IMG/VR virus record: IMGVR_UViG_3300022072_000172
Span: 1-20,968 of that record
Reading direction: 5' to 3' (one strand)
Source of the DNA: a virus
Length of the DNA stretch: 20,968 bases
The first letter of the stretch is position 1. Every line of letters begins with the position of its first letter. The translations under genes were made by a program, and so were the position numbers. This document shows, piece by piece, positions 2,384 through 20,961 of the stretch. The notes under the pieces are model-generated. The model saw nothing but the letters and a program-made list of their open reading frames with translations, ran no database searches and was not told the DNA's origin.

Positions 2384-2445
2384 GACTCTTTTCCTCTGAG
2401 TTAAATTATAAGCTTATATCATAATGCGGATCTATCACTTATTTC

Positions 2446-2453: not shown

Positions 2454-2464
2454 AGAAATTATAT

Positions 2465-4081
2465 TTAGAAACTGTGGTGTTCATAGTCTATGGCCCAAGG
2501 TTTACCTATGTCGTCTTCTCTTTGTAATTCATTAATTGCATCAGATCCATCATCAATAAATCCGAATGGCACCAAGTCATTTTCAATCTGATTCATTTTA
2601 TCCTTAAACATCATCTCTTTTAAATTGATATCCGTCATATCACCAAACATTTCAGTCGTAGCAAAGTAGCCAAACATAACTAAATTCATCATTAAGTCGT
2701 CATGGTTACCCTGTGAGGCTTCATACGATTGGCCCTTGGCAATAAATGTAGAACACTCTAAGATAGTATTGGTGTCATGGATCTGGAGTTTTTCATTCTC
2801 AATAATATCTTTAATACCAGAACATCCTAACCGTTTTACCTTGCGAGTCATTTCAATACCAATTCCGTCTGATTTAAGCGCAGACGATACGTGCATGTTT
2901 TCATATTCTAATTCATGATATAAACCACGCGTGACTAGCACACCTTGATCATTTGATTCAATAATAACGTATGCCTGATTGTAAGAAGTTGCATACTTAT
3001 AAATAATGTCAGGGAAGAGTATTGGAGAGATAGAGTTACATCGATAAACCGCGACTTGTTCAAACGGTCTACAGGTTACATCGATCACATTAAATGTAGA
3101 ATAATCCTGTCCTCTTCCCTTACTTACATCTACGCATATAATATATTCATGATCTTTTTTGGTTTCTTTATAAACCAGTAAGTGCCCACCCTCTAGAATC
3201 TTAACAGGGTCTATAGCCTTCATTCTCATAAGAGCTTCTGCGCCGATTAGTGTGTCGCCAGTGCCGAAGAACGTATTGCCAAATTCCTGATCAAACTGAA
3301 GCTGTGAAGTATTGTTAACCGTCTCACGCTTCCAAGCTTCATCACGCCCTGGAACATCCCACCAATCAACTCTGAATGGTATATATGCGTTTGTCTTTTG
3401 TCCAGCGCCTTGCCAGATAGTATAGAACTGGTTACCAATACCGTTCGCAGTTGATGTAATAATAACCTTTGTATCTTTACCAGATGAAACAACGGGATAT
3501 GTCGATGTATAAAATTCTGTAGCATTTTCAACGAATGCAAATTCGTCAAGATAAAGTAGGTTAACAGATTGACCACGAATAGAAGAACCTGAAGTAGCCG
3601 CAGCAAAAATCTTAGAGTTATTACTAAACTCAATTGAACCTTTGTTTAAAGCTTTTGTGCCAGGCTGTAGAAAGAATGGTAAGTTCTCTAACATAAGTGT
3701 AACACGTGAAAGCATCTCACGGGCCGTAGCACCTTTGTTTGCTAATACTGCAATATTTTTTTCAGAATGAAAAATGCCAAACCAAAGCAGATACGCAACA
3801 GATGAAATTGATTTACCACTCTGACGACATGCAAGAACAATAGTAAATCGGTTATCGTTAAAGTGCTGAAACATCTTTTTCTGGTAAGGATACAGCTTAA
3901 AGTTTACTAAGCCTTCATCAAGTGAAATAATCTTACAGTATGTCACAGCAAAATATGCAGGATCATTCATGCACTTTTGATATTCAAGTATAGTTTCTTG
4001 TGACCATCCCTGAACAATCCCATCACGTTTAACATTTTGATTACCTAAGTAACCTTCATTAGTATTTACAATATTATTCAT
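2465..4081 (-). CDS. 17: Terminase large subunit gp17 (packaging ATPase and nuclease)
   Basis: This 538-residue protein has both motor and nuclease domains. A Q-type motif YPYQKKM lies at 64-70, Walker A CRQSGKS at 85-91, Walker B LLYLDE at 175-180 with catalytic Glu180, and the coupling motif TSTAN at 209-213. In the C-terminal RNase H-like nuclease domain, the likely metal ligands are Asp318 (in VDVSKG), Glu375 (in IIESNDQG) and Asp461 or Asp462 (in NHDDLMM), with QDYS at 325-328. T4 gp17 is longer (610 residues). The motor docks on the portal and packages concatemeric DNA, cutting at headful. The ATG lies inside the end of gp16 (8-base overlap, ATGAATAA) without a clear ribosome-binding site, so translation is probably coupled to gp16. 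Confidence 0.97.
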   Translation of the reverse strand: MNNIVNTNEGYLGNQNVKRDGIVQGWSQETILEYQKCMNDPAYFAVTYCKIISLDEGLVNFKLYPYQKKMFQHFNDNRFTIVLACRQSGKSISSVAYLLWFGIFHSEKNIAVLANKGATAREMLSRVTLMLENLPFFLQPGTKALNKGSIEFSNNSKIFAAATSGSSIRGQSVNLLYLDEFAFVENATEFYTSTYPVVSSGKDTKVIITSTANGIGNQFYTIWQGAGQKTNAYIPFRVDWWDVPGRDEAWKRETVNNTSQLQFDQEFGNTFFGTGDTLIGAEALMRMKAIDPVKILEGGHLLVYKETKKDHEYIICVDVSKGRGQDYSTFNVIDVTCRPFEQVAVYRCNSISPILFPDIIYKYATSYNQAYVIIESNDQGVLVTRGLYHELEYENMHVSSALKSDGIGIEMTRKVKRLGCSGIKDIIENEKLQIHDTNTILECSTFIAKGQSYEASQGNHDDLMMNLVMFGYFATTEMFGDMTDINLKEMMFKDKMNQIENDLVPFGFIDDGSDAINELQREDDIGKPWAIDYEHHSF

Positions 4082-4442
4082 CTTTTAAATGTGGTGTAAT
4101 ATCAACTACGTTGCTCTCTACTTGTTTATTATTCGCATCTTGAAGCATACGTTGAAGATCTGTTGTTGATCCTATGAACAGATTATTAGTAGTTTGTCCA
4201 TGAGGTAACTGTGGTTGTTCTTTAATGTTAATATCTTTATGTTTCTTATTCAGATCCATAAGCTTATCGTTAACATCAGCAACGTTTTTAATAAGTCCAG
4301 ATAGCACTTCGAATGCTCTAGGGTGCTCGCTCTCACGTGCGACGTCGATCATATCTTCAAGAGCATTTCGTCCCTTATTGATTAAATCAAATAAGGTGTC
4401 TCTTGAATATTCATAGTCATTTTTAATTCTATCTGAGTCCAT
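4074..4442 (-). CDS. 16: Terminase small subunit gp16
   Basis: The family signature is the N-terminal helix pair NDYEYSRDTLFDLINKGRNALEDM and the following SEHPRAFEVLSGLIKNVADVNDKLMDLNKKH, as in T4-like gp16. This region should form the coiled-coil oligomerisation core. The C-terminal tail is polar and probably flexible. I chose the ATG at 4442, which gives 122 residues. A TTG at 4451 in the same frame could add three residues, but it has no ribosome-binding site and lies within the end of gp15. The chosen ATG sits one base after the gp15 stop (TGATATG), which favours translational coupling. The protein recognises DNA and regulates gp17 during packaging. It is shorter than T4 gp16 (164 residues). 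Confidence 0.88.
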   Translation of the reverse strand: MDSDRIKNDYEYSRDTLFDLINKGRNALEDMIDVARESEHPRAFEVLSGLIKNVADVNDKLMDLNKKHKDINIKEQPQLPHGQTTNNLFIGSTTDLQRMLQDANNKQVESNVVDITPHLKDE

Positions 4443-4443
4443 A

Positions 4444-5205
4444 TCAATCAATCAATGTTGTTAAAGTTTCTGTAAATCCATAATCACTATCAGGTGAAAC
4501 GTTTAAGGGGTTTGGTTCTACTGTTAAAGTTGAAACCTTATAATCGGAATCTGCCATAAAATAAATTTCATTAGTAACCTTGCGAATAATTTTGCCTTCG
4601 TTAATGCTCTGGTAAAAGTTGGCATGCATTTGAAAGTCTAATTGATAGATAATAGTTCGTCTATTAAAAGATCCTTCATAGTCATCAGAGTAAGATATAC
4701 CATTTAATATAATAGGAACATCTTCTTTTATATCTGGATAATCTGAAAATGGCTTAATGGTTAAGTTATACTGTGGACTAAAGTACGGCATGATTTGTTC
4801 TACTATTTGTAGAGCATCATCCTGAGTCTTTGCATAGACGTTAAGCTGCATGTCAATAGTATATGGTACGTAGTTATATATCTTCGAGTTTGTAGTTATA
4901 CTATCGCTAGCTCTATTTCTTGCACCCATTTTTTGTAGCTGTCTTTGCGCATCATATTGATACCCTAAGATTTCAAACGACATACGAGGTAATTTAATAG
5001 CCACCTTTGTGTCATTGGTTAAGTCAGGATTTTCCCTAATACGTTCTAAAAAATCTCTTTTAGGTGCATACGATAAAGGAACCTTCATAGTGTTAAGCAC
5101 TTTACCCGTCGAATCTTTACGAAGAACATACAGGTTATTAAAAAGAGACCCAAACATTGCGACGCTTTTACGGATACGTTCGTGGTAGAAATATGTTCCT
5201 AACAT
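4444..5205 (-). CDS. 15: Tail sheath stabiliser / tail terminator gp15
   Basis: This 253-residue protein is close to T4 gp15 (272 residues). Recognisable parts are the N-terminal GTYFYHERIRKSVAMFGSLF-like segment, a VPLSYAPKRDFLERI stretch (about 42-56), LPRMSFEILGYQYD (about 72-85), and the strongly conserved NYVPYTIDMQLNVYAKTQDDALQIVEQIMPYF region (about 110-141). gp15 forms a hexameric ring that caps the tail tube and sheath and joins the neck. Its ATG overlaps the gp14 stop by one base (TAATG), and a GGAG about 12 bases upstream lies inside gp14, so the two are probably coupled. Confidence 0.93.
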   Translation of the reverse strand: MLGTYFYHERIRKSVAMFGSLFNNLYVLRKDSTGKVLNTMKVPLSYAPKRDFLERIRENPDLTNDTKVAIKLPRMSFEILGYQYDAQRQLQKMGARNRASDSITTNSKIYNYVPYTIDMQLNVYAKTQDDALQIVEQIMPYFSPQYNLTIKPFSDYPDIKEDVPIILNGISYSDDYEGSFNRRTIIYQLDFQMHANFYQSINEGKIIRKVTNEIYFMADSDYKVSTLTVEPNPLNVSPDSDYGFTETLTTLID

Positions 5206-6323
5206 TACTGAGGATCTCCAAATGGATTTTCGTCGCTAAAATCTAAGAATTCTAGATTATCAGTACCGAAGTCTAAATTCTGTTCATTCTCAGATAGCTG
5301 GTTATCTTCTACCACTGCTGTAACTAATCCACCAGAACCATCAGATGCAAGAATAAGTCGAGTCGTAATAGCGTGGAATTTGCCATCGCTAGCTCCAACC
5401 GAAACAATCTTCAAAGTGCCACTGGAATCATTCCAATCTGAAACTTCGCCCTCGATAATAGTACCATCTGAAAGGGTCTGATACACAGGTTCACCCTTTG
5501 TAAATGTAATAACAGGTGGTGGTGCTATAGTTAAATCAGCTGAGGTATATCCAAAACCTCCATTAACTAACGTTAGATCAATAACTTGTCCTAAATCACT
5601 ATCTATTATAGCTACCACTTCAGCGCCTGTCCCAACGTCTGGTGTAGAAATTGTAACTATAGGTGCTGTCTTAAAATATCCTGCGCCAGGATCTACTAGT
5701 CTAAGACCACCGATACTACCGGAGTCGGTAATACCTACATCACCAAGAGCAGTAGTTCTGGTAACATCGACTGTAAGAACATATTGGTATCCGTAGTCTG
5801 CTTCAATGTCATCAATTACATCAATACCAGTATCAAGTGCTTCACCACTATACTCAAAGAGTTCACATCTCATTTTATAGGTGGGCAGATTGCTTATTTG
5901 GTAGAATGGAGATTCATGCTCAACGTGCTGAATTTGAAATAAAGAATTAGATAGGCTAAGATAAACTAGATCACCTTCTCTTGGTCTTACAGAATTAATC
6001 TCATTATCATATCGGCCTATAGTTTGATTCCACCTTTTACGAGATACGATAAAGGTTGCTTGGTCACGAATCTCAATACCAAACTTAGTAAAAAGATCCC
6101 CTTCTCCATCAAACCCTTCTGCGTTCTCGATATACATTTCGATTTTATATGAGTTACTAAATGATGATTGTATATCGTCGCCTAAAATACGATCCTCATT
6201 TACTATTTCTCTTGGAATGTAATAGACATCTTGACCATAGATCTTAAGAGATTCTATAATAATATCTTCATATAGGTTTTGTTCTGATTTAACCTTTTGG
6301 CTAAAATAATGATTTGTTGCCAT
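5205..6323 (-). CDS. 14: Neck protein gp14 with an inserted Gly-rich beta-repeat region
   Basis: Residues 1-165 are a good match to the T4-like gp14 head-completion/neck family: HYFSQKVKSEQNLYEDIIIESLKIYGQDVYYIPRE near the start, then EDRILGDD, an IEMYIEN strand and KFGIEIRDQATFIVSRKRW. At 372 residues the protein is much longer than T4 gp14 (256). The extra part at about 204-275 contains two copies of a GxGY...P.V/I-type beta repeat (LVDPGAGYFKTAPIVTI and LVNGGFGYTSADLTIA), followed by a small domain beginning GEPVYQTLSDG. The protein completes the head after packaging, together with gp13. The ATG has an AGGAT ribosome-binding site that overlaps the gp13 stop codon. Confidence 0.92.
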   Translation of the reverse strand: MATNHYFSQKVKSEQNLYEDIIIESLKIYGQDVYYIPREIVNEDRILGDDIQSSFSNSYKIEMYIENAEGFDGEGDLFTKFGIEIRDQATFIVSRKRWNQTIGRYDNEINSVRPREGDLVYLSLSNSLFQIQHVEHESPFYQISNLPTYKMRCELFEYSGEALDTGIDVIDDIEADYGYQYVLTVDVTRTTALGDVGITDSGSIGGLRLVDPGAGYFKTAPIVTISTPDVGTGAEVVAIIDSDLGQVIDLTLVNGGFGYTSADLTIAPPPVITFTKGEPVYQTLSDGTIIEGEVSDWNDSSGTLKIVSVGASDGKFHAITTRLILASDGSGGLVTAVVEDNQLSENEQNLDFGTDNLEFLDFSDENPFGDPQ

Positions 6324-6327
6324 TTGT

Positions 6328-7083
6328 TTATCCTACAAAGAAATCTGCTGGCATCTCAAAGTCCATGCGAATCTTTTCTCTTAGTTTCTCAATTTCTTGT
6401 AGTGCATCCTCAAAGATCTGTCTTCCGTTAAGGGTAACTCCACCTGGTAATTGCATTCCTTCAAACTTAATTAGGTTTGAACCCCACTGTTGCTTAATTA
6501 ATGCAGTGGTATATTCTTTTAACCACATATCATTCCATACTTTTGTATGAGCACCGGAATCTACAGTCTTGTATGCTTCGTATACAATATAATCACCGGC
6601 TTGCACATCTTTATCATTAAAGTCTCCGTGAAGATAAAGACGATTCATTTTACGTGAATACGTAGTCTGTGGTTCACCGTTGAGCTTCATATCAAGCAGA
6701 GATAGGTACTGGTTTAGCTGATCGTAATACGCTAAATCCCCTGCAAAGTTTTGCATATCAGCAATGTCATTTAACATCATCTGATACTTAATATCAAAGA
6801 AATTAAACGAAGTATTAAAGCTTGACGAAATACGGAACATTCTACTTATGTAAATCACATCATTAGAAACGGTAACATATTTATTCGATACGTCACTGTC
6901 ACCTACGAGCTGCGATACATAGGTTCTATACGTCGCATCTGAGTGATACTCTTGCCAGTACTGTAAAGCCTCGTCAACCCGATCTTCTAATTGATCAACA
7001 TCGACATTAATCTCGATTACTGGATCGCCTAATCTTCTAAGGCAGTAATCTATAAGACCTTGTCTTGAACTCGGGTTAGCCAT
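6328..7083 (-). CDS. 13: Neck protein gp13 (head completion)
   Basis: This 251-residue protein has the gp13 family opening, SSRQGLIDYCLRRLGDPVIEINVDVDQLEDRVDEAL, followed by an aromatic-rich YWQEYHSDATYRTYV. Later landmarks are VSNDVIYISRMFRI, FNFFDIKYQMMLND and YDQLNQYLSLLDMKL. The C-terminal part has YEAYKTVD and WLKEYTTALIKQQWGSNLIKFEG, followed by an LPGGVTLNGRQIFEDA stretch typical of marine T4-like gp13. T4 gp13 is 309 residues. The protein binds the portal and, with gp14, forms the collar that joins head and tail. A TAGGA ribosome-binding site precedes the ATG, and an exact late promoter box abuts the upstream gene's stop codon at 7104-7111. Confidence 0.93.
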   Translation of the reverse strand: MANPSSRQGLIDYCLRRLGDPVIEINVDVDQLEDRVDEALQYWQEYHSDATYRTYVSQLVGDSDVSNKYVTVSNDVIYISRMFRISSSFNTSFNFFDIKYQMMLNDIADMQNFAGDLAYYDQLNQYLSLLDMKLNGEPQTTYSRKMNRLYLHGDFNDKDVQAGDYIVYEAYKTVDSGAHTKVWNDMWLKEYTTALIKQQWGSNLIKFEGMQLPGGVTLNGRQIFEDALQEIEKLREKIRMDFEMPADFFVG

Positions 7084-7103
7084 ATCTTATTCCTATTTTC
7101 AAC

Positions 7104-7111
7104 TATTTATA
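7104..7111 (-). promoter_or_regulatory. T4-type late promoter box upstream of gp13
   Basis: The minus strand reads TATAAATA in the 28-base gap between the 1079-residue fibre gene and gp13. The box begins directly after the fibre gene's stop codon and ends 20 bases before the gp13 ATG. It is an exact match to the T4 late box and probably drives the gp13-gp14-gp15-gp16-gp17 run. Confidence 0.8.
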
Positions 7112-10100
7112 TTAGTTTAAAAGTGTTCCTGCTGCGTTATATACGTCAATACGGTAATACGAACCTTGTTGACCGTCGAGAAGATCGGCATCTAAACCTG
7201 ATCCTGAGCCATCATTTACCGTAGCAGTTAGTGTCACGTTTGCAGATCCATCAATACTAACATTACCAGATAAATCCCCGCCTAATGTAATTGTACGAGC
7301 AGTCGTCCATTTGTCCGCATTAGGATGATAGCCATCTGTGAAGATAACATTTCCATCATATTTAAACTGTGCCCCGCGGCCACTATTTGCTGGGATAACG
7401 AATATTTGTGCACCAGTGCCATTTTTAAAATCATAAGATCCACCGGCCGGATTTCCTGCTGCGGTATTAAAAGTTAAGCCGAAATTTGTAGAGGGAGCAA
7501 AAGCAAATACATAGTTATCTTCGCCACTTACACCAACATTTATTTGGGAGCCACTACCTAGATTAATATCTGCTGAACTACCGAAAGTTAAATTACCAGA
7601 CATAGTCCCGCCAGCAAGAGGCAACTTAGCATCGAGAGCTGTCTGTAAACCGTCTACGTTAGAAATAACGTGGTTGTGTGTATCATCACCAACAGTAGCG
7701 GTAATTGAGATATTACCTGAACCATCAAAGTTAGCACTACCGGTTACGTCACCGGTAAGAGCTATCGCACGAGCGGTTGCAAGAGCAGATGCGGTTGAAG
7801 CATTACCAGTAAGAGCTGCTGTAATTGTACCAGCAGAGAAGTTACCAGATGCATTTCTTGCTACAATTGATGAAGATGTATTTGCTGAGGTAGCGGATGT
7901 TGCGGAGTTTTGGACTTTACCTACACTAGATATAGTATTAAGCTTGGTATCCGCAATAGCTGCTGAAGCATTAATATCAGCATTTACAATCGATCCAGCC
8001 GTAATAGCTGCGGATAGTGTAATATTACTTGAACCATTAAATGCTACGCCTGAAGCTGTAATATCACCGCTGATAGCAATATTTCGACTTGTTGCTAAGA
8101 CTGTAGAAGATGTAGCATTACCTGTTACGTTACCTGCTACGTTACCAGTTAAGTTACCTTGGAATGTATCGGCTTTAAATGTACCAAGTGAATACGATGC
8201 ATCACCATCGTCAATGCTTCCATTAGGCTCAGGCGCATATTCATCTACTACTTTAAATATACCATCGCTTACATCAAAGTAAATACCAAGGTGTGTATAT
8301 CCTACCCCAGTAGTGCCAGTGTTACGATTAGTAAACCAACCTGTATCGGTATTTACTGGAGCAGCTTGGCCATCCCATTTATCAGCAGAGGTGTGACCAG
8401 TTGTAGCGTTAAAGAAGATACTGATACCATCAGCTAGAGCTTGATCATCACCTGTAATATCGACGTCGGTTGCTTCGGTCGTTGAAAAGTTATCTAATGA
8501 CCATTCAAACGTATCGACACCGCCAGAACCTGTACCAACCCCATCAATTCTAACATAGAATGTTTGTGTCGTTGTCCCTTCATAGTGTCCAGTGAAGTAA
8601 GCATCATCCAGACCTGAACCTGTAAAGTTAGTATTCGCAGAACCAATAGTATTACCAGAGTTCAGATAGATAAATGAATTATCAACTGCGAGGTTAGCCT
8701 GTGAAACAATCGACTGTGTACCATTAACAGTTAAGTCACCGTCTACAGTTAGGTTACCGTCGATGTGCGAATTACCACTTACTCTCAATTGTTCAGAGTG
8801 ATGCCAGTCAACGTTGACGTAAACGTAACCACCAGAGGAATCTGATACCACGCAGGCCCCAATTTCGACTGGGAAGTACGGATATGTAGCAGCAGTATTT
8901 TTGAGTGAACCATCTGCGGCAAGATGTATAGGTTGTCCAGCTGCAATCGCAGAAGTATCAAATCCTGAAACTAAACCTCGAACAGTCACATAACCGTAAG
9001 AAGAATTTTCAATAGTATGCGTCGCTAATCCGACAACACGCGCTTTTGTTTCGGTTGTAGCATCAGCAGGGGCAATCGTCAGGGTCTCACCGAGAGATCC
9101 TGTAGCATATACCGGTCTACCATCAGGAATGGCAGAACCACTGTTATTATAAACCCGAACCCACTCTTCTTGACCAACCTGAAGCGAAATGTCTGCTTCG
9201 TCGTTATATACAGTTAGCGCTTTATATTCATCATTATAGTAAAGTCTACCTTCTTTCCAAGCTGGACCTGGATCTGTTGGTGTAAGGTCAATAAGACCAG
9301 TTGCAACTTCACTTGCAACAGCTGAATCCATATTAATTCTACCATCAACACGAATTCTATCTTGTACACGTAAGTATTCAAAATGCTCGGAGAATACCTC
9401 AACAAGCACCATACCTTCACTAGAATCAACTGTCATAACTCTAGCAGCATGGACAGGATAACCGTCGTCTACTGAAACACCGGTGTTAACTAATTCACCA
9501 GCGGAATCTTTAGAAAGATAAAGAACATCACCTGTAGTAAATAACGAGGTGTCTAGTCCTCTTACCATACCAGATGTAGTTACCCAACCATGTCCGCCGT
9601 TGGGAATATCCATAGTAGTAAGACCAGCAATTTGGCCAGTAGCAGACGTGTCAGCTTTAGATAAAGAAATCTGTGGATGTTTACCGTGAGCAGTACCGGA
9701 TACGTAAACAGCTTTACCGTTAAGAATATTTGCGCCGGATAAGTTGTGAACGTAGAGTAAGTTTTCTTGACCTACGTTAAGGGTAACACCCGGTGTGGGA
9801 TTCTCTAAGGTTCTTAATTTAAGAGAAAGAGATTGTTGCTCATCAGAATCGAAATATAAAGTACCTGCAGCATCGTTCGGAGCTGTGGTTCGAATTCTAA
9901 ACGATATATTATCGACTGAAGCAGAGTCGCTTGTTACTTTAGCAAAGGTAACATCTGATGTAGTTGAAACATCTTGGCCAATAGCAATGTTGTCAGCATT
10001 AACCGTAATACCTGTACCAGCGCCAATATTAAATGTGCGAGAGGTTGTAATATCACCCCCGCCTGTTAGACCGGAGCCAGCAGTTAAAGTTACAGTACTA

Positions 10101-10351
10101 TGATCAATATGCTCATTTGCTACAAAACCTTCAAGATCATCATGTGCAGGCAGTTCTGCCAGTGGAGGCACATACCCTGCTAATACGCTTTCCACTCCGG
10201 CCGAATCTATAAATCCTTTAATTTGATTTGAAGAATTCTTATAATATAGTCGACCGTCAGCATAATTAAGTGCGAGTTCGCCATATTCTAAATCTCCTGT
10301 GCCCGGTGCATTATCCGAGACTGAAGACTTTTTAAGAAGTACCTTAGCCAT
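7112..10351 (-). CDS. Large tail-fibre-like structural protein (1079 residues)
   Basis: The N-terminus (LLKKSSVSDNAPGTGDLEYGELALNYADGRLYYKN, residues 5-39) is a phage fibre attachment-type segment also seen in shorter form in the 585-residue neighbour. Residues about 163-340 and 365-540 are an internal duplication: each has LYF/LYYxD, then L(N/Q)VGQE, NLSG/NNSG, G(L/F)DTS, a VxVxV strand and a trailing LRV...DG segment. Residues about 528-560 have DGDLTVNGTQSIV, a common fibre beta-motif. The second half is Thr/Ala/Gly-rich repeat sequence ('GNVTGNATS', 'IALTGDVTGS'). It ends with LDADLLDGQQGSYYR, typical of phage fibre C-termini. AAGGA lies about 8 bases before the ATG. The T4 slot between gp8 and gp13 suggests a baseplate or fibre component; receptor binding is inferred only. 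Confidence 0.85.
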   Translation of the reverse strand: MAKVLLKKSSVSDNAPGTGDLEYGELALNYADGRLYYKNSSNQIKGFIDSAGVESVLAGYVPPLAELPAHDDLEGFVANEHIDHSTVTLTAGSGLTGGGDITTSRTFNIGAGTGITVNADNIAIGQDVSTTSDVTFAKVTSDSASVDNISFRIRTTAPNDAAGTLYFDSDEQQSLSLKLRTLENPTPGVTLNVGQENLLYVHNLSGANILNGKAVYVSGTAHGKHPQISLSKADTSATGQIAGLTTMDIPNGGHGWVTTSGMVRGLDTSLFTTGDVLYLSKDSAGELVNTGVSVDDGYPVHAARVMTVDSSEGMVLVEVFSEHFEYLRVQDRIRVDGRINMDSAVASEVATGLIDLTPTDPGPAWKEGRLYYNDEYKALTVYNDEADISLQVGQEEWVRVYNNSGSAIPDGRPVYATGSLGETLTIAPADATTETKARVVGLATHTIENSSYGYVTVRGLVSGFDTSAIAAGQPIHLAADGSLKNTAATYPYFPVEIGACVVSDSSGGYVYVNVDWHHSEQLRVSGNSHIDGNLTVDGDLTVNGTQSIVSQANLAVDNSFIYLNSGNTIGSANTNFTGSGLDDAYFTGHYEGTTTQTFYVRIDGVGTGSGGVDTFEWSLDNFSTTEATDVDITGDDQALADGISIFFNATTGHTSADKWDGQAAPVNTDTGWFTNRNTGTTGVGYTHLGIYFDVSDGIFKVVDEYAPEPNGSIDDGDASYSLGTFKADTFQGNLTGNVAGNVTGNATSSTVLATSRNIAISGDITASGVAFNGSSNITLSAAITAGSIVNADINASAAIADTKLNTISSVGKVQNSATSATSANTSSSIVARNASGNFSAGTITAALTGNASTASALATARAIALTGDVTGSANFDGSGNISITATVGDDTHNHVISNVDGLQTALDAKLPLAGGTMSGNLTFGSSADINLGSGSQINVGVSGEDNYVFAFAPSTNFGLTFNTAAGNPAGGSYDFKNGTGAQIFVIPANSGRGAQFKYDGNVIFTDGYHPNADKWTTARTITLGGDLSGNVSIDGSANVTLTATVNDGSGSGLDADLLDGQQGSYYRIDVYNAAGTLLN
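8732..9259 (-). repeat. Internal duplication in the 1079-residue fibre, second copy
   Basis: This part encodes residues of about 365-540 and parallels the segment at 9332-9865. Shared landmarks are RLYYNDE against LYFDSDE, LQVGQEEWVRVYNNSG against LNVGQENLLYVHNLSG, GFDTSAIAAG against GLDTSLFTTG, and LRVSGNSHIDG against LRVQDRIRVDG. Similarity is clear in protein but not in DNA, so the duplication is old. Confidence 0.8.
9332..9865 (-). repeat. Internal duplication in the 1079-residue fibre, first copy
   Basis: This part encodes residues of about 163-340 and is the partner of the segment at 8732-9259. The unit is about 175 residues and is probably a separate beta-rich fibre domain. It carries a central G(G/S)xGxVTxxG(M/L)VxG(L/F)DTS core in both copies. 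Confidence 0.8.
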
Positions 10352-13625: not shown

Positions 13626-14300
13626 TTATACAGGATTTTCAATATCTTCAATAATATCTTCCCAAAGATTATGAGCTTCATCTCTACCCCAGACATATGC
13701 AACACTAATCCGAAGGCAGTCCGTTGATGCAGCATGATAGCACAGTTTATCTGGCTCATCATAAGATCCGAAGTAAGTCATTTTACACTGCCAACCAGAG
13801 TGATCTGGAATTCTAACACGTTCTTTCTTATCGACATCCCAATAATCAAACCATCCGTCACCATTCTCTGACCAAGAAAAAATGACATTATAGCCAGCAG
13901 CATTTGCGTTATTGTGCCAACTGATCCATCCACCTGGAGGGTATACTGTAACTAATGTATTTGTTCTGGCAGACAGCTCAGTCATCATTTCCATATTAAG
14001 TCGATTACTCATGTCTCGGTAATCTTTAAAGCTATCTTTATATCCGCTATTGCTATTGGGCATTAGACCATGATAAGATTGCATGCTTTCTGGGAATCCC
14101 TCATGCTGTCTATTGCGATCGATAATACGATGCATATAGTCGTCAGCCAACCATCTATCACGCGTGTGATCCTTCGCATTTAATTGAAGGTCCTTATCCA
14201 TTTCACCAGAATCTCTTTTAGCAAGAATAAAATCCTTAAATTTATTAAGTGACTTTAAGACTTCTTCATTATTAATTTCTACATCACGAACTTCAAACAT
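13626..14300 (-). CDS. 2-oxoglutarate/Fe(II) oxygenase-like protein (224 residues)
   Basis: The C-terminal half looks like a double-stranded beta-helix oxygenase. VTVYPPGGWISWHNNANAAGYNVIFSWS holds His129 in an H-N-N context, a central strand has WFDYWD, and LCYHAASTDCLRISVAYVW holds His189 and Arg197. In the family, HxD and a distal His bind iron and the Arg binds 2-oxoglutarate. Here the carboxylate position is Asn131 (HxN), so activity is uncertain. The N-terminal 110 residues are mostly helical and of no known fold to me. Similar proteins are frequent in marine T4-like phages. The ATG overlaps the stop of the upstream glycosyltransferase (TAATG), with AAGGA 13 bases before, so the two are probably co-translated. 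The substrate is unknown; a nearby virion protein is one possibility. Confidence 0.72.
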   Translation of the reverse strand: MFEVRDVEINNEEVLKSLNKFKDFILAKRDSGEMDKDLQLNAKDHTRDRWLADDYMHRIIDRNRQHEGFPESMQSYHGLMPNSNSGYKDSFKDYRDMSNRLNMEMMTELSARTNTLVTVYPPGGWISWHNNANAAGYNVIFSWSENGDGWFDYWDVDKKERVRIPDHSGWQCKMTYFGSYDEPDKLCYHAASTDCLRISVAYVWGRDEAHNLWEDIIEDIENPV

Positions 14301-15097
14301 TAATGTACTGCGTCCTTTTTCATACTTGCGGAATGGTGAATAACAATAGGTGGATTATCTACTAGATTGTGTTTTTTAGTCTCAGGATTAATCCTAAAAG
14401 AAGTAAACCAGTTCCATCTATAATTTTCTTTAAAAATACCTATTTTAATATCTTTATATCTATCAACCTTATTGGTCATCCACCACAAGGTAAACTGATC
14501 CCATCGCAACATAGTTTGAGGGGTGTCTTCTGGAAACCATCTTTGATTGGGACCAACATCAACGTTATTGTACACTTCTTCTTGGACTTGGAATTTTTCC
14601 CACCAATCTTGCATAAATTCTCTAACAACTGGATTTCTCATATCGTATAGACAAACGCCACCGCAGAGTGTTAAGTCAATAAGATCTCCAGTGCTAGGAA
14701 TCTTAGCCGTAACCTCGACAAAGGATCCAGCTGCTCTATTGTCTTTGGTTAGCTCTACGAATACAAGATCATTATCTTCAAGCTGATCCCAGATAGTAAC
14801 AATATCTTCATGCTCAACTTCACAGTCAGCATCAATATAGAATGTAATATCAAAAGGTGAATTAGCCATACCGTATAGCTTAGCACGAATGTGGTTCGTG
14901 CATGAAAAGACTTGGATTCTAGGATCTTCAGCTCTACTGTCTAAAAATCGATCTTCTGTGAAAAGTGCAAACTGAGCCTCAGGGTAGTAGTCCCATATAG
15001 ATTCAATAAGGTTAATTGCCGAATAATAAAATGCGGGCTTTTTAGATGCAACTATTACAAATCCCTTAGACGGACTCTGGTGTTGGGATAGATTCAT
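14300..15097 (-). CDS. Glycosyltransferase-like protein, GT-A fold with DxD (265 residues)
   Basis: Residues 12-20 (GFVIVASKK) form the first strand, followed by a helix and AQFALFTED. The HIRAKLYGMANSPFD stretch (69-83) and TFYIDADCEVEHEDI (85-99) place a DxD (Asp89-Ala-Asp91) as in GT8-like transferases. CGGVCLYDMRN is the expected product-side loop. The C-terminal part is Trp-rich (RWDQFTLWWMTNK, NYRWNWF) and ends with a conserved-looking IHHSASMKK. The protein is similar in plan to the enzyme at 12810-13562 but clearly divergent. The first 32 bases of the gene overlap the end of the preceding gene in another frame. The ATG has AGGAAG about 9 bases upstream. Donor and acceptor are unknown. 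Confidence 0.83.
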   Translation of the reverse strand: MNLSQHQSPSKGFVIVASKKPAFYYSAINLIESIWDYYPEAQFALFTEDRFLDSRAEDPRIQVFSCTNHIRAKLYGMANSPFDITFYIDADCEVEHEDIVTIWDQLEDNDLVFVELTKDNRAAGSFVEVTAKIPSTGDLIDLTLCGGVCLYDMRNPVVREFMQDWWEKFQVQEEVYNNVDVGPNQRWFPEDTPQTMLRWDQFTLWWMTNKVDRYKDIKIGIFKENYRWNWFTSFRINPETKKHNLVDNPPIVIHHSASMKKDAVH

Positions 15098-15530
15098 TAT
15101 TATATTCTTCCTGGATCAACAAAGAAAGATAAGCCTGCATTTCGAAAATGCTTTTAGACTTTCTGATTTTGGCTTTTAATTTTCTATTTTTAGAATTTTT
15201 TACCGGCTCAATCTCAAAAACTTCAAGCTTAGCATTAAAAAGATTCTCAAGCTTTTGAGCTTGTATTCTTTCTTCTTGAGCTTTCTTATCGCTTTTTCGT
15301 CTATTCTTATGACGCTCTTCTCTTTCTTTAGTATTCTCATTAATCTTTTCAATTGTATTTTGATCAATGATTTGCTGAAAATCTTTATTAATAGATCCAT
15401 CAGCCTGATACTTAGAAACTGTGGCAGTAGAAGATGTTTCTTTACCGTCTTCATGAATAATAAAAAGCTTTGCAGTAATTCTATCTTTTTGATAATTTTC
15501 CCAGAAGGGAAATTTCCATTCTTTTTTCAT
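15066..15530 (-). CDS. Highly charged, coiled-coil-like protein of unknown function (154 residues)
   Basis: I do not recognise this family with a known function. The N-terminus is aromatic (WKFPFWENYQKDRITAKLFI, residues 4-23), a beta-type segment with SSTATVSKYQADGSINKDF follows, and residues about 60-112 are an almost uninterrupted charged helix (NENTKEREERHKNRRKSDKK...). A basic stretch NSKNRKLKAKIRKSK (112-126) precedes the last helix FEMQAYLSLLIQEE. The arrangement suggests a coiled coil or an RNA- or protein-binding helper. It sits directly after the two tetrapeptide-repeat fibres and before the glycosyltransferase, so a fibre assembly chaperone is conceivable but not supported beyond position. 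The ATG has a GAGGT ribosome-binding site. The 3' end overlaps the next gene by 32 bases. Confidence 0.78.
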   Translation of the reverse strand: MKKEWKFPFWENYQKDRITAKLFIIHEDGKETSSTATVSKYQADGSINKDFQQIIDQNTIEKINENTKEREERHKNRRKSDKKAQEERIQAQKLENLFNAKLEVFEIEPVKNSKNRKLKAKIRKSKSIFEMQAYLSLLIQEEYNNESIPTPESV

Positions 15531-15537
15531 AGTAACC

Positions 15538-18500
15538 TCATGCTGTTCGAACGTATAATGTATATATCTCTAGAGTTTCGTCTGTTCCTTGGACGGTGGA
15601 AGCCGTATAGTCGCCAATAAAGTTGCCAGTATAATTGCCTATAAAGTTGCCTATATAATCACCAATATAGTTACCTGTGTAATCTGCAGTATAGTTACCA
15701 ATAAACTCTCCGGTATAATCTGAAACATAATTGCCTAAGAAATTACCTTCATAATGTGCTACATAGTCACCCACAAAGTTTCCTGTGTATTCAGCAGTAT
15801 ATTCGCCTACGTAATTACCAATAAAGTCACCAGTATAATCCCCAATAAAGTCACCAGTGTAATCTGCAATGTAGTTGCCGATAAAGTTACCCAAATAATC
15901 AGCAATATAGTTACCTACAAAGTCACCGGTATAATCAGCAAGATAATTACCTAAGAAATTACCACCTACATAGTTACCGTCATAGTGAGCAACATAGTTA
16001 CCAGCATATGCAACTTCTCGTGTTCGGGTAAAATCTTGCGCCCTAACGCGTGTATAATCTACAGTAGAATCTCTTGTACTATTTCTTGTGTAGTTTACAG
16101 TAGAAGTTCTTTGACTGTTTCTGGTACTGTCTCTGGTAAAGTTTACTGTAGAATCTTTCGTGGAAGTTCTGAGTGAAGTTCTCGTATAGTTAACAGTAGA
16201 CGTACGCTGACTTAATCTTGTGTAATCAACGGTGCTTGTTCTTTGTGAAGTTCTAGTTGAGGTGCGTTGATAGTTAACAGTAGACGTACGCTGACTTAAT
16301 CTTGTGTAATCGACAGTGCTTGTTCTTTGTGAAGTTCTAGTAGAAGATCTTGTACTAGTTCGAGTAAAGTTAGTATTTTCGTTAGCGTAGTCCCCTACAA
16401 AGTTACCAGTATAGTCACCAAGGAAGTTGCCACCTACAAAGTCACCGGTATAGTCACCGAGGAAGTTACCTCCTACAAAGTCACCGAGGAAGTTGCCGCC
16501 TACGAAGTCACCGGTATAGTTCCCTACAAAGTTACCGCCTACGAAGTCACCAAGAAAGTTGCCTGCATAGGTTGCATTTAGTCTGTTTCTTGTGCTAGTT
16601 CGAGTAAAGTTAGCAGCGTAGTCACCGGTGTAGTTACCAGCATAGTCACCAAGGAAGTTACCGCCTACAAAGTTACCTATAAAGTCAGAAGAATAGTTAC
16701 CTATAAAGTTACCAGCAAATGCTCTAGTTGAACTTCTAGTAATCGTACGAGTACTAGTTCGAAGAAAGTTAGCCGCGTAGTCCCCTACAAAGTTACCAGC
16801 AAAGTTACCAACAAAGTCTCCAATGTAGTACTTAATGCCACCACCAAAGTATGCTGGTGAGCCGCCATAATATTGCACGCTGCCACCCTGAAGAGCGCGT
16901 ATTCTTGTACTTGTCCGAGTAGAAGTTCTTGTGCTAGTACGAAGAAAGTTAGCTAGGTAGTCACCGACGTAGTTACCATCAAAGTTACCAGCAAAAGCCC
17001 TAGTGGAACTTCTCGTAGAAGTTCTAGCATATGGGACAAGCGAATTTCTAGTATAATCTACAGTAGAATATCGGGTACTTGTACGATTACTAACCCGAGT
17101 AAAGTTAGCTAGGTAGTTACCGGCATAGTCACCAAGGAAGTATGTAAGCGAACTTCTTGTAGAGGTACGTTGATAGTTCACAGTCGAAGTTCTTGTAGAG
17201 GTACGTTGATAGTTCACAGTCGAAGTACGTTGATAGTTCACAGTCGAGGTGCGTTGACTATTTCTTGTATAGTTCACAGTAGACGTGCGTTGACTTAATC
17301 TAGTGCTAGTTCTGGTATAATTTTGGGTACCAATGTAATCTCCGACAAAGTTACCGGCAAAGTTACCAGCATAGTCACCAAGGAAGTTACCGCCAACAAA
17401 GTTACCAGTATAGTCGCCAAGAAAGTTACCGCCAACAAAATCCCCTAAAAAGTTACCAGCATAGTCACCAAGGAAGTTACCGCCAATAAAGTTACCAGTA
17501 TAGTCGCCAAGAAAGTTACCGCCAACAAAGTCTCCAACATAGTTACCAGCATAGTCACCGATAAAGTTACCCTGATAGTTACCTATAAAGTTACCGGTAT
17601 AGTCTCCTAGGAAGTTGCCACCAATAAAGTCACCAGTGTAATCGCCAATAAAGTTACCCTGATAGTTACCCGTAAAGTTACCCTCGTAGTTACCAGCAAA
17701 GTTACCACCAACGTAATTACCGAGATAAGTAGTAGCGTAGTTACCAAGATACGTCGACTCTCTTGTTCGTGTAAAATCAAGATTAGATACTCTTGTACTA
17801 TTTCTACTAAATGCCGCGGTAGAAACTCTAGTACTGTCACTAGTAAAACTAGTTTGACTTACTCTTGTGTAGTTACCCAAGAAAGTCTGTAGAGAATTTC
17901 TAGTGCTATCACGATTAAAATTATTAGTAAATTCTGTAGTGCTTTCTCTGATATAGTTTGCTGAGAAGTTGACAAGACTTGTTCTGGTGTACTCCGAGGA
18001 GAATGCTACCTGGCTTGTACGTACAAAATTTAAAGTACTGACTCGTGAACTGTCACGAGTAAAGTTTTGGGTGCTATCTCTATTAAAGACGTTAGTACTG
18101 TCTCTTGTGTATGCTTCTTCTGCAACCTGTTGTCTGGTATCAAGAGCGGTTCCTTTTGTAACCCATGTACCGGGATCAGTTGGCGTACCTTGTACAGAAC
18201 TTCTTAACTGATACTTACCAACGCCTGTAGTTGATATCCTATCAATTAAATAATACCCAAACGCTTCTTTTATTTCAGCATCCGACATCTCTTGAAAGCC
18301 GGCAAATGCAGAAGCGACGTATTTTATTTTAATAGGTCTTACCGCAGTAGGAACAGTAATCGAGGTTCTTTTCCAAAGCGTGTAATTAATAGTAGTACCA
18401 TCAGATCTGGTATCAGTAAATACATTACTAAGCTCTGCAGACCATCCAGCACCAGGTGAGGAAACTGCTAATCTATAAGCCCCTGGACCATCATTGGTAA

Positions 18501-18864
18501 AAATATAAGAAATGATATCATCAGCAATTGAATTGATATCAGTCGGTATCATCTCGTATGCAGCTCCTGCATCAAAAGATAGAGGCACAACAGTAGGAGC
18601 GGATGGCGCTGTATAATTTTGATATAGATTCGTGGTGGTTGTACTAATCGATAATGAATCGTGAGCACCAGGAGCTTGATCGTAGACTGTATCTGTATGG
18701 GACCCAACCGAATTACCAGAAGTGGTATTCATGTACCAGTTACTGGTGGCGCTTGCCAACCAATTAGCACTTTGCACATTAATATAGTCTAAATCTGAAG
18801 AGGTATTAAACTGTTGTAGGTTTCCCGCGGCATCTTTCAGCTTCAGTAAAGTGCTATTGCTCAT
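15538..18864 (-). CDS. Giant tetrapeptide-repeat fibre-like protein (1108 residues)
   Basis: Residues 1-250 are a non-repetitive domain shared with the next protein upstream; matching landmarks are HTDTVYDQAPGAH, TTTTNLYQNY, FTDTRSDGTTINYTLWKR, EMSDAEIKEAF and LRSSVQGTPTDPGTWVTKGTALDTRQ. From about residue 252 to 1085 the chain is built of four-residue units whose last residue is Phe, Tyr or Ser: xG[N/D][F/Y] blocks (GNFIGDYTGNF) and xR[T/N/D]S or TVNY blocks (TRTSTVNYQRTS). Exceptions are about a dozen five-residue GGNF units and one irregular insert near 655-685. The last 25 residues (IYTLYVRTA end) are shared with the paralogue. There are no Cys residues in the repeat part and no signal or membrane segment. 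I infer a long fibrous virion protein, perhaps a tail or whisker fibre. A GAGGA site precedes the ATG. Confidence 0.85.
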   Translation of the reverse strand: MSNSTLLKLKDAAGNLQQFNTSSDLDYINVQSANWLASATSNWYMNTTSGNSVGSHTDTVYDQAPGAHDSLSISTTTTNLYQNYTAPSAPTVVPLSFDAGAAYEMIPTDINSIADDIISYIFTNDGPGAYRLAVSSPGAGWSAELSNVFTDTRSDGTTINYTLWKRTSITVPTAVRPIKIKYVASAFAGFQEMSDAEIKEAFGYYLIDRISTTGVGKYQLRSSVQGTPTDPGTWVTKGTALDTRQQVAEEAYTRDSTNVFNRDSTQNFTRDSSRVSTLNFVRTSQVAFSSEYTRTSLVNFSANYIRESTTEFTNNFNRDSTRNSLQTFLGNYTRVSQTSFTSDSTRVSTAAFSRNSTRVSNLDFTRTRESTYLGNYATTYLGNYVGGNFAGNYEGNFTGNYQGNFIGDYTGDFIGGNFLGDYTGNFIGNYQGNFIGDYAGNYVGDFVGGNFLGDYTGNFIGGNFLGDYAGNFLGDFVGGNFLGDYTGNFVGGNFLGDYAGNFAGNFVGDYIGTQNYTRTSTRLSQRTSTVNYTRNSQRTSTVNYQRTSTVNYQRTSTRTSTVNYQRTSTRSSLTYFLGDYAGNYLANFTRVSNRTSTRYSTVDYTRNSLVPYARTSTRSSTRAFAGNFDGNYVGDYLANFLRTSTRTSTRTSTRIRALQGGSVQYYGGSPAYFGGGIKYYIGDFVGNFAGNFVGDYAANFLRTSTRTITRSSTRAFAGNFIGNYSSDFIGNFVGGNFLGDYAGNYTGDYAANFTRTSTRNRLNATYAGNFLGDFVGGNFVGNYTGDFVGGNFLGDFVGGNFLGDYTGDFVGGNFLGDYTGNFVGDYANENTNFTRTSTRSSTRTSQRTSTVDYTRLSQRTSTVNYQRTSTRTSQRTSTVDYTRLSQRTSTVNYTRTSLRTSTKDSTVNFTRDSTRNSQRTSTVNYTRNSTRDSTVDYTRVRAQDFTRTREVAYAGNYVAHYDGNYVGGNFLGNYLADYTGDFVGNYIADYLGNFIGNYIADYTGDFIGDYTGDFIGNYVGEYTAEYTGNFVGDYVAHYEGNFLGNYVSDYTGEFIGNYTADYTGNYIGDYIGNFIGNYTGNFIGDYTASTVQGTDETLEIYTLYVRTA
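16187..16354 (-). repeat. Two tandem 84-base copies within the fibre repeat
   Basis: The segments 16187-16270 and 16271-16354 are nearly identical over about the first 70 bases (two differences near TAATC[A/G]AC[G/A]G) and then diverge. The offset of 84 bases is 28 residues, or seven whole four-residue units of the RTS/TVDY type. This looks like a recent in-frame duplication. Confidence 0.85.
17361..17540 (-). repeat. Two tandem 90-base copies within the fibre repeat
   Basis: The segments 17361-17450 and 17451-17540 differ at one base in the first 80. The unit is 30 residues and consists of five four-residue units plus two five-residue GGNF units, so the duplication preserves the register of the array. 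Confidence 0.88.
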
Positions 18865-18873
18865 ATATTGTCC

Positions 18874-20961
18874 TCAAGATACTCTAAGATATAGTGTATA
18901 TATCTCCGCTTGACTGGAGGTAACTTGGATCGTCTGTCCTAGATAATCACCGGTGTAATCTCCGATAAAGTTACCATCGTAGTTACCTATAAATCCACCG
19001 TCGTAGTTTCCTACATACTCTGCAGTATATTCACCTAAAAATTCACCAGTGTAGTTTCCGATAAAATCTTGGTTAGTTACGTACTCCCCGGCATAGTCAC
19101 CGATGTAATCATCCGAAGCGTATTCGCCAACAAAGGTGTTAACGTAGTTACCTACGAAGTCGCCAGTATAGTCGCCAACAAAGTTACCGGTATAGTTACC
19201 TGCAAAGCCCCCGCTATAGTTACCAATGAAGTTACCAGTATAGTTACCTACGAAGTCGCCAGTATAGTCGCCAACAAAGTTACCGGTATAATTGCCAACA
19301 AAGTTACCGCCAACAAAGTCTCCAGCGTAGTTACCTGCAAATGCTCTGGTAGAACTTCGCGTTGATGTTCTAGTAAAATTAGAAACATACTCGCCTAGGA
19401 AGTTACCGCCAGTAAAGTTACCGGTGTAATCTCCGATAAAGTTACCAGTATAGTTGCCAATGAAATTACCCTCGTAAGCTGGACTCACATAGTATTCAAC
19501 TCTACTACCGAAAGTGTCCGAACGAATATCTTGCCTAATTCTAGTAGAGGTTCTAGTAAATACGTCACCGATGTAGTTGCCAATGAAATTACCCTCGTAA
19601 GCTGCACCACCAAAGTATACTATTTTACCACCGTAAGTTGCTGATGAACCACCCCCATCAATTCTAGTAGAAGTTCGGGTAAAATCGCCACCTGTTCTTA
19701 TTCTAGTAGAAACCCTTGTATAGTCCACTGTAGAGGTTCTTACGAAAGCAGTAACGTAGTCACCAACGAAGTTACCCGCAAATGCATTGGTAGAGTTTCG
19801 GGTGGAAGTACGTGTATAATTTACTGTAGAGGTCCTAGAATAATCTACCGTTGCCGACCGTGTATAATTTACTGTAGAGTTGCTAGAATAATCTACCGTG
19901 CTCGACCGTGTATAATTTACTGTAGAGGTCCTAGAATAATCTACCGTGCTATCCCGTGTAAAAGCATTCGTAGAAGTTCTGGTAAAGTTTGCGGTATATT
20001 CACCTACGTAAGTACCAGCAACATTTGTTGGACCGGACACATAGTTACCAGCATAATTACCCACAAAGGTCACAGCACTCACATAGTTACCTAGATAATT
20101 TACCCCGGAATTTCTTGTAAAAGCTCTAGTGGAAGTTCTGGTAAAGTTACCTGACGTGCCTCTGGTAGAATTTCTAGTAGAGGTTCGTTGGCTATTTCGT
20201 GTGTAATTTACATCTGCTGTATTTTGCTTAGTGTCAACTGCTGTACCACGACTTACCCATGTACCAGTAGCGGTTGGTGCGCCTTGGGCAGAAGTCCTTA
20301 ACAGATAAGATCCAATCCCGCCCGACGTAACTCTATTTTTTACAGCTTGACCGAAAAGATCCCGAATCTCTGTGTCGCTCATTTCTTTAAGATCTGAACC
20401 AAATAATTTTACAGGTTGAACTGCAGTAGGTTGAGTTGGAAGATTTTTCTTATACAAGTTATACGTTATACTAGTCCCATCGGTTCTAGTATCAGTAAAA
20501 AGGCTAGATATAAAAAGAGTATGCCCTGCTGGTGCAGAAGTGTCAATACGATATGAAAAATAGTCGTCACCGAACACTTTTTCTAAAAGTCTGTCTGCAA
20601 TAACATTAAGATCGGAAGATGTAGTAGCTTTAAGATCAGTCTCCCCGTCTACCAGAGTTACCGGATCCACGCTTGCAAGTGTTGCATTACCTGAAAAGTT
20701 TTGATAAAGAGTAGTAGTGGTAGAAGAAGATGTGATAGAAGATCCGGGGTGAGTACCTACTGCTTGATCGAAAAGGGTATCAGTATAGGATCCAATGCTA
20801 GTACCATTAGACAAAGATTTGCTTAATACGCCAGCTTCACCAGCTGTAGAATTAAATAGTTTATTTGCAACCCAATATGCTAAATAATCTTCTTCACTTT
20901 CTGAAATTTGTTGAAGATCGTAAGTATTGATCTTCTTGACCAAATGTTTGGTAATAGCCAT
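18874..20961 (-). CDS. Second tetrapeptide-repeat fibre-like protein (695 residues), paralogue of the 1108-residue protein
   Basis: Residues 1-250 match the N-terminal domain of the next gene: YTDTLFDQAVGTH, TTTTLYQNF, FTDTRTDGTSITYNLYKK, EMSDTEIRDLF and LRTSAQGAPTATGTWVSRGTAVDTKQ. Residues about 251-672 are four-residue repeats: Arg/Ser-type and TVDY/TVNY units dominate the first part, GNFxGDY units the second. Two irregular inserts occur at about 432-455 and 473-495. The last 22 residues (EIYTLYLRVS) match the paralogue's tail. The stop lies 9 bases before the next ATG. The start codon at 20961 is only 7 bases from the window edge, so its ribosome-binding site and promoter are not visible; a slightly longer N-terminus cannot be excluded. 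The role is inferred to be a fibrous virion appendage. Confidence 0.84.
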   Translation of the reverse strand: MAITKHLVKKINTYDLQQISESEEDYLAYWVANKLFNSTAGEAGVLSKSLSNGTSIGSYTDTLFDQAVGTHPGSSITSSSTTTTLYQNFSGNATLASVDPVTLVDGETDLKATTSSDLNVIADRLLEKVFGDDYFSYRIDTSAPAGHTLFISSLFTDTRTDGTSITYNLYKKNLPTQPTAVQPVKLFGSDLKEMSDTEIRDLFGQAVKNRVTSGGIGSYLLRTSAQGAPTATGTWVSRGTAVDTKQNTADVNYTRNSQRTSTRNSTRGTSGNFTRTSTRAFTRNSGVNYLGNYVSAVTFVGNYAGNYVSGPTNVAGTYVGEYTANFTRTSTNAFTRDSTVDYSRTSTVNYTRSSTVDYSSNSTVNYTRSATVDYSRTSTVNYTRTSTRNSTNAFAGNFVGDYVTAFVRTSTVDYTRVSTRIRTGGDFTRTSTRIDGGGSSATYGGKIVYFGGAAYEGNFIGNYIGDVFTRTSTRIRQDIRSDTFGSRVEYYVSPAYEGNFIGNYTGNFIGDYTGNFTGGNFLGEYVSNFTRTSTRSSTRAFAGNYAGDFVGGNFVGNYTGNFVGDYTGDFVGNYTGNFIGNYSGGFAGNYTGNFVGDYTGDFVGNYVNTFVGEYASDDYIGDYAGEYVTNQDFIGNYTGEFLGEYTAEYVGNYDGGFIGNYDGNFIGDYTGDYLGQTIQVTSSQAEIYTLYLRVS
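19145..19291 (-). repeat. 96-base offset direct repeat in the 695-residue fibre
   Basis: About 50 bases beginning at 19145 recur, essentially without change, beginning at 19241. The 96-base offset is 32 residues, or eight whole four-residue units of the GNY/GDF/GDY type. Confidence 0.85.
19811..19954 (-). repeat. Three tandem 48-base copies in the 695-residue fibre
   Basis: Copies begin at 19811, 19859 and 19907, each opening with CGTGTATAATTTACTGTAGA on the + strand and differing at only a few positions. The unit encodes 16 residues (four four-residue units of the TVDY, SRTS, TVNY and TRxS kind). Confidence 0.87.

Follow-up and report, generated by a model that had tools for sequence, protein, structure and literature searches.

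Predicted giant beta-hairpin tail fibres built from complementary four-residue repeats in a T4-like viral contig

Most known phage fibres are homotrimers of parallel chains whose tip is C-terminal. One element of this kind, the C-terminal triple-stranded beta-helix of T4 gp5 (PF22178), is a parallel homotrimer of octads that ends in a free C-terminus. In the 'stalk and knob' of bovine antibodies with an ultralong CDR-H3 (PMC5994613, PMC8602281), the beta-hairpin loop of a beta-domain is extended to a protruding stalk that carries a diversified apical knob. Pentapeptide-repeat (Rfr) beta-helices and collagen-like fibres consist of a short regular repeat with periodic aromatic or hydrophobic residues, or Gly, and arrays of TGN[VL] in structural proteins of T4-like viruses (S-RIM2 YP_007675557 and a 1079-aa fibre of the contig described here) are x-G-N-(hydrophobic) tetrads located in the same gene neighbourhood of related phages. 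Here we describe two tandem genes of a 20,968-bp viral contig from IMG/VR, analysed over its whole length (the window), whose products, A and B, are likely to be giant antiparallel beta-hairpin (ribbon) tail fibres with a receptor-facing tip, a structure predicted from the evidence given below.

Measured against these systems, A and B share with the gp5 element a phage setting, a Gly/Asn-containing short repeat and a sub-threshold profile similarity, but their period is 4, their C-terminus is anchored and their two halves are complementary in antiparallel orientation. As in the bovine loop, the hairpin loop of a beta-domain appears to be extended outward and to bear a diversified apex; by comparison with that loop, which reaches ~70 residues, there is no homology, the arms in the A/B family run to 200-900 residues each and follow a tetrad pairing code, and there is no disulphide knob. 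The TGN[VL] arrays differ from A and B in having V/L for F/Y, no Arg-tetrad partner and no triplicated N-domain. Matches to S-RIM2 were rejected as relatives, being low-complexity TGNV arrays; T4-like fibre proteins with TGN[VL] arrays are encoded at window positions 7112-10351 and at 1408-7146 of a related contig (L007). A pentapeptide repeat (period-5 A(D/N)LXX) was ruled out by periodicity at lag 4, not lag 5, and a collagen-like repeat (Gly at every third position) by a Gly autocorrelation that is negative at lag 3 and peaks at lag 4; neither family is matched by A or B in Pfam.

The sequence-only reading of this DNA had proposed Phe, Tyr or Ser at almost every fourth residue of both proteins, and autocorrelation bears this out: at lag 4 it reaches 0.74 over residues 271-1090 of A and 0.60 over residues 251-680 of B, whereas none of 500 shuffles exceeds 0.09 for A or 0.18 for B. 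The G, R and N/D autocorrelations likewise peak at lag 4, and among 56 dereplicated relatives the signal is still present at lag 32 (F/Y 0.35). In these relatives, T/A/V/S predominate at tetrad position 1, G/R/S at position 2, N/T/D at position 3 and Y/F/S at position 4, which can also be Arg (TRTR). The unit classes of A and B agree with those first described (QRTS, TRTS, LGDY, AGNF, TVNY and others). That these classes alternate in blocks was also seen, and is explained as the two sides of a pairing, an R-block in one arm facing a G-block in the other. The 'occasional breaks' in the repeat include single-Gly insertions (VGGNF), and these are not random. The interval first assigned to the repeat, 15610-20211, contains a real repeat within bounds that are slightly too narrow, in that about 255 N-terminal and about 22 C-terminal non-repetitive residues form part of the same object (Table 1). 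An acidic variant of the repeat (YSGNFSVNYSGDFEETY, with almost no Arg) occurs in the fibre ORFs of two further loci (L050 and L058), both open at the 3' end; arms of this composition must either obey a different rule or have Tyr paired with Gly/Glu.

Table 1. Coordinates of features in the window (residue numbers refer to the encoded protein)
Feature	Position	Strand	Basis
Protein A, 1108 aa, predicted giant hairpin-fibre gene	15538..18864	-	intact ORF; B paralogue
A N-domain, residues 1-253, helix+hairpin unit in three tandem copies	18106..18864	-	family profile self-alignment
A outgoing (N-) arm, residues 254-658	16891..18105	-	stem dynamic program
A apex, residues 659-679, QGGSVQYYGGSPAYFGGGIKY, predicted tip	16828..16890	-	stem dynamic program; relatives vary most here
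A returning (C-) arm, residues 680-1086	15607..16827	-	stem dynamic program
A C-terminal strand, residues 1087-1108, ..ETLEIYTLYVRTA	15541..15606	-	completes N-domain copy 3; tail profile match
Protein B, 695 aa, predicted giant hairpin-fibre gene, tandem paralogue of A	18874..20961	-	intact ORF
B N-domain, residues 1-254	20200..20961	-	AF2 pLDDT mostly 85-96; triplication
B outgoing arm, residues 255-465	19567..20199	-	stem dynamic program
B apex, residues 466-471, between two similar units resembling mini-hairpins	19549..19566	-	stem dynamic program
B returning arm, residues 472-673	18943..19548	-	stem dynamic program
B C-terminal strand, residues 674-695, back to N-domain	18877..18942	-	AF2 strand 661-693, pLDDT 75-95 over 670-695
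154-aa basic/coiled small protein, next gene after fibre in 60/84 loci	15066..15530	-	synteny
Glycosyltransferase-like protein (GT-A, invariant YIDAD-type motif), conserved in 60/84 loci	14300..15097	-	
224-aa protein, 2OG-oxygenase-like motif order (HNN..H..R), conserved in 57/84 loci	13626..14300	-	

The N-domains of A and B are paralogous (42% identity across 278 residues), and an alignment of 50 non-redundant N-domains resolves them into three tandem copies of a strand - helix - beta-hairpin unit (best profile self-alignment score 70.5, column-shuffled maximum 22.6). In copy 3, the repeat starts where the last strand would be expected. The conserved C-terminus, SSTIETYTLYVRTA (..IETYTLYVRTA), scores 13.7 against the last strand of copy 2 (DGTSTNYNIYKRTS) and 12.1 against that of copy 1 (TSTTTTTTLYQVEG), the next-best N-domain window scoring 4.3 (P 0.002 against shuffled tails). 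The C-terminus thus appears to be the missing last strand of copy 3, which makes the entire repeat an insertion between the two strands of the third hairpin, with both of its ends anchored. Both the triplication and the return of the strand are read from the sequences themselves; the return is supported independently by an AF2 model of B (45-sequence alignment), in which the confidently predicted N-domain is followed by 413 repeat residues at pLDDT ~25 and the chain ends in the confident strand listed in Table 1. The strand limits of that model, 235-265 and 661-693, give index sums of 926-928, in agreement with the register derived from sequence, where residue 255 faces residue 673 (sum 928). 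A Foldseek search of the PDB with the B model returned no structural relative of the N-domain (best E 0.2).

The two halves of the repeat are complementary. The tetrad types at the start of the repeat mirror those of its reversed end, xRxR/xRxS lying opposite xGN[FY] and VSxY opposite SRNF. Mutual information between residue classes in the first 72 residues of each arm of 35 non-redundant proteins peaks at one register, in which position 2 faces position 4', at 0.464; permuting the C-arms between proteins gives 0.131 (sd 0.019). In these 35 proteins, facing R-R pairs number 0 and 2, against expectations of 13 and 15, and Gly lies opposite R or S at position 4 in 75 and 70 cases, against expectations of 50 and 41. 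Mutual information also exceeds this null off-register (z 5-7 at |delta| = 8-10, and 11-14 at +4 and +6). Relatedness within subfamilies and period-8 patterns each contribute to this excess, so that significance rests on the specificity of the register, on held-out tests and on the indels described below. Since relatedness inflates mutual information at every register, the pairing rule was trained only on other N-domain subfamilies; with such rules, 23 of 37 held-out proteins picked the same register from the 12 offered, the mean score being +0.27 there and at most +0.03 elsewhere, and in all 37 the protein's own C-arm outscored the mean of foreign C-arms (mean z 2.5). Antiparallel complementarity in a fixed register is found in both A and B, and in two members of the family (L019 and the downstream gene of L020) the types of the two arms are swapped while their complementarity is retained. 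An origin of this complementarity in DNA palindromes was rejected, the gene for A holding one 18-bp inverted repeat.

The location of both repeat ends in one domain, together with the antiparallel complementarity of the halves, leads to the proposal of a giant hairpin. A dynamic program that extends the pairing of the arms outward from the base carries the stems to mid-chain, with arms of 405 and 407 residues and a 21-residue apex in A, and arms of 897 and 897 (L024), 674 and 675 (L037) and 251 and 251 (L036) in three relatives. Stem scores, which are partly circular in that the program uses the learned rule, far exceed those of tetrad shuffles in A (89, against 41 with sd 5) and in relatives (155 against 62 in L019, 104 against 31 in L020, 241 against 104-120 in L024 and 222 against 81-95 in phage C48C1). 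For 28 of 31 proteins, each of the 15 rotations scores below the true order, a control that is conservative because a rotated hairpin remains partly a hairpin, and for 30 of 31 the parallel order does so too. Where one arm of A passes from R-type to G-type blocks, the other makes the reverse change, and 62 of its 67 paired Arg/Lys residues face an aromatic residue, five face Gly and none faces Arg, a count that is partly built into the scoring. The one-residue bulges VGGNF, a feature unrewarded by the scoring, lie opposite TV[ND][FY] in 16 of 21 cases, against 1.5 expected. The fit of the stem is weak in a few short or unusual members (L016, L022 and the first gene of L012). In an AF2 prediction of the apex fragment of A (residues 613-725, single sequence; pLDDT 64, pTM 0.37), a low-confidence helix occupies the position expected of the return strand, and no hairpin is seen. 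The apex region of B (window 19451-19683) contains a 123-bp tandem duplication with two mini-hairpin-like tips (TRTSTRI...YEGNFIGNY twice), which suggests that its tip is branched.

ﾠWhen related proteins are aligned pairwise with affine gaps, an indel in one arm has a mirror counterpart in the other, of equal length and equally far from the base. Expressed as size@distance from the base, L080 and L081 differ by 12@321, 16@345, 30@389 and 4@488 in the N-arm and by 12@319, 16@345, 30@389 and 4@490 in the C-arm; L036 and L039 differ by 4@6, 28@129 and -14@236 and by 4@5, 28@141 and -14@236, respectively. In other pairs the same length is made up differently on the two sides (176 against 156+20 in L048/L034, and 120+56 against 176 in L024/L048). 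In a strict count, limited to indels of at least 4 aa that lie more than 30 aa from the apex and requiring mirror partners to agree in size and sign and to lie within 20 aa of each other in height, 16 of the 51 in the N-arm are mirrored, against 2.9 expected (maximum 9 in 2000) and 1 in an opposite-sign control; the 19 comparisons behind this count share some genomes and are not fully independent. Of the indel lengths in the stem, 81 of 99 are multiples of 4 and 95 are even, as aligned with affine gaps, which were used in place of default MAFFT gaps (72 of 179 indels multiples of 4). Unmirrored indels also exist (-24 in L029 and 118 in L065/L070). Variation rises toward the predicted tip: amino-acid difference between relatives is 0.11 at the base and 0.38 at the apex, and the number of indels per decile climbs from 4 to 51. 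Such a gradient would be expected if the tip diversifies, and the tip is likely to contact a receptor.

For the ribbon geometry, its oligomeric state, its attachment to the baseplate and its binding of a receptor, we infer the following. The N-domain would be a single-chain pseudo-threefold assembly of three helix-plus-hairpin units, seated at the baseplate, with the whole repeat replacing the beta-hairpin loop of the third unit. From there the chain would run outward as a long beta-strand of tetrads, turn at the apex and come back as a second strand paired antiparallel to the first over its full length, the last ~12 residues completing the sheet of the N-domain. In facing tetrads, position 2 would lie opposite position 4', Arg mostly meeting Tyr/Phe, in contacts possibly of cation-pi type, and otherwise Gly; a small Ser or long Arg at position 4 would lie opposite Gly, VSxY opposite SRxF, and one-residue Gly bulges (VGGNF) opposite TV[ND][YF] units. 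Stacked Arg and aromatic residues would occupy one face of the ribbon and Thr/Val/Asn/Asp the other. With its register fixed by the complementarity, a straight ribbon would measure ~130 nm in A, where each arm has ~405 residues, and ~70 nm in B, where each has ~205. A two-stranded ribbon of more than 100 nm would be floppy unless oligomerised or coiled, and several ribbons may associate or domain-swap. We also regard it as reasonably probable that these proteins represent a new fibrous class in which one chain, of up to more than 3,000 residues, folds on itself into one antiparallel beta-ribbon with complementary strands. In such a class, a tetrapeptide code (Arg-tetrad to Gly-tetrad, VSxY to SRxF, TV[ND]Y to GG bulge) would set the register, length would change by mirrored compensatory indels in the manner of an RNA stem, and the fold-back would form a hypervariable receptor-binding tip.

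Other arrangements of the repeat have to be weighed against this hairpin. The sequence-only reading had envisaged an ordered fibrous fold, perhaps a narrow solenoid or an intertwined oligomer; the fibre-like ordered code is in keeping with the former part of that proposal, but the anchored ends and antiparallel complementary halves speak against a narrow solenoid or a parallel intertwined oligomer. A single-chain solenoid, a pentapeptide-like fold and a gp5-like trimer were dropped, as they predict no return of the C-strand, no complementarity and no mirrored indels. The trimer, a parallel intertwined triple-stranded beta-helix or spiral resembling the C-terminal part of T4 gp5, in which a tetrad would be a short side or half an octad, draws on the prevalence of parallel trimers among known tail fibres, on a weak, sub-threshold match to Gp5_trimer_C confined to B residues 336-386 (E 0.013; 16.1 bits, cut-off 30.9) and on the weak resemblance of TGN[VL] repeats of other phages to gp5 structures (E 0.004-0.04). 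We nevertheless consider it distinctly unlikely, as it would not place the C-terminal strand in the N-domain, where it sits in these proteins with no free distal tip, nor would it account for complementary arms with matching indels.

An oligomer in which the outgoing arm pairs antiparallel with the returning arm of a neighbour (for example, a trimer forming a 6-stranded fibre) is equally compatible with the complementarity, the mirrored indels and the returning strand, and tail fibres are usually oligomeric; a multi-ribbon fibre would also be stiffer. Such a swap is unneeded by the data, however, and a monomer AF2 model places the C-strand confidently, and we judge it unlikely. We give very little credence to a flexible, sticky, disordered loop tethered at both ends, of the FG-nucleoporin or RG/YG low-complexity adhesive type. 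The Tyr/Phe/Arg/Gly/Asn-rich low-complexity composition and the low pLDDT of the B repeat would suit such a loop, but it would have no need for a fixed register, equal arms, indels that are even or multiples of four and mirrored, or paired bulges. The self-paired hairpin remains the reading that we prefer.

The surroundings of the two genes are those of a tail module. All main genes of the window lie on the minus strand, in the order B, A, the 154-aa protein, a glycosyltransferase-like protein, the 224-aa enzyme-like protein, a second glycosyltransferase-like protein, an LtfC-like protein and a 76-aa protein; beyond these are two further fibre-like proteins (585 and 1079 aa) and then homologues of T4 gp13-gp19, named from order and length with the exception of TerL, which was assigned by sequence comparison. 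TerL is 70% identical to that of C48C1 and 46-48% to those of Synechococcus myophages, placing the contig with T4-like, Kyanoviridae-type viruses; no psbA was found in six large related contigs, which are possibly incomplete. In most of 84 loci, two baseplate-region proteins, homologous to baseplate-region ORFs of C48C1, precede one or two fibre (REP) genes, followed by the 154-aa protein, the glycosyltransferase, the 224-aa protein and the LtfC-like gene, the last resembling an L-shaped tail fibre assembly gene. A and B accordingly lie in a tail-baseplate segment, beside baseplate and fibre-assembly genes. This context, like the complementarity, mirrored indels and variable apex, is read from sequence. 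On our preferred reading, both proteins serve a marine, T4-like myophage as tail fibres with an unusual fold.

The 154-aa protein is a candidate fibre chaperone. In the window (13626-15097) and its homologues in ~60 loci, the glycosyltransferase (invariant DAD motif) and the 224-aa protein are locked behind the fibre gene. The latter may be 2OG oxygenase-like, to judge from its motif, and searches of Pfam and of PDB sequences gave no family or match confirming this; its motif, WHNN..H..R, has HxN in place of the HxD of 2OG dioxygenases. Together, these two enzymes may hydroxylate and glycosylate the fibre. At another locus (L008, 676-4821), the upstream 1381-aa baseplate-region protein has a C-terminus that is a Hint/intein-like domain (CFVKGTKVRMADG...AHNRC).

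That no described family has this four-residue code had been suspected at the outset, and searches agree: A and B match no Pfam family above its cut-off; PHROG gives two weak matches, both to families with no known function; NCBIfam matches fall far under cut-off (PdsO, 27.5 against 152; PRK10045, 16.5 against 331); and a PDB sequence search found no relative, its matches being confined to a low-complexity part of P230 rich in Glu/Val/Gly. Neither these repeats nor C48C1 were found described in the open-access literature. A scan of 50,697 phage records located the B N-domain only in C48C1 (OQ984149, Kyanoviridae), whose 'hypothetical protein' WJE88074.1 is the sole relative in a named phage. 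It has the same N-domain, tetrads, C-terminal strand and complementary stem as A and B, and differs from them in its length of 3,347 aa and in several globular inserts, mostly in the returning arm. This homologue (L006, 11995-22038) includes a tandem-repeated stretch (KTRHRSYLYYSTDTSTNQQFFEPRVDD...), and some of its inserts are possibly carbohydrate-binding.

A scan of IMG/VR recovered 211 relatives, of which 79 loci were kept, and on this one scan the family appears common in marine viromes. Ninety-three distinct proteins, ranging from 508 to more than 3,500 aa, combine the N-domain with a tetrad tail, and wherever their end is present it is of the YTLYxR type; A and B, with triplicated N-domain and YTLYxR strand, are among 70 proteins with both N-domain and complete C-terminus. 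In 84,980 prokaryote genomes, one match was found (L090, NHBR02000105.1), on a contig binned into the marine Muricauda sp. TMED12 MAG; this is probably viral contamination and possibly a hint of the host.

An architecture of this kind, with self-paired halves, an arginine/aromatic/glycine code and a fast-evolving tip, was found in no described family. If the hairpin is true, with both ends of the chain at the base and its middle at the tip, it would represent a different way for a single gene to encode a long adhesin. Its code of paired tetrads would make structure readable from sequence and the evolution of length testable through mirrored indels, and it suggests designable protein ribbons of programmable length. 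Modification of the fibre by the glycosyltransferase and 2OG-like enzyme of the cassette likewise becomes testable. As a family that appears common in marine viromes, these fibres may affect host recognition in the sea.
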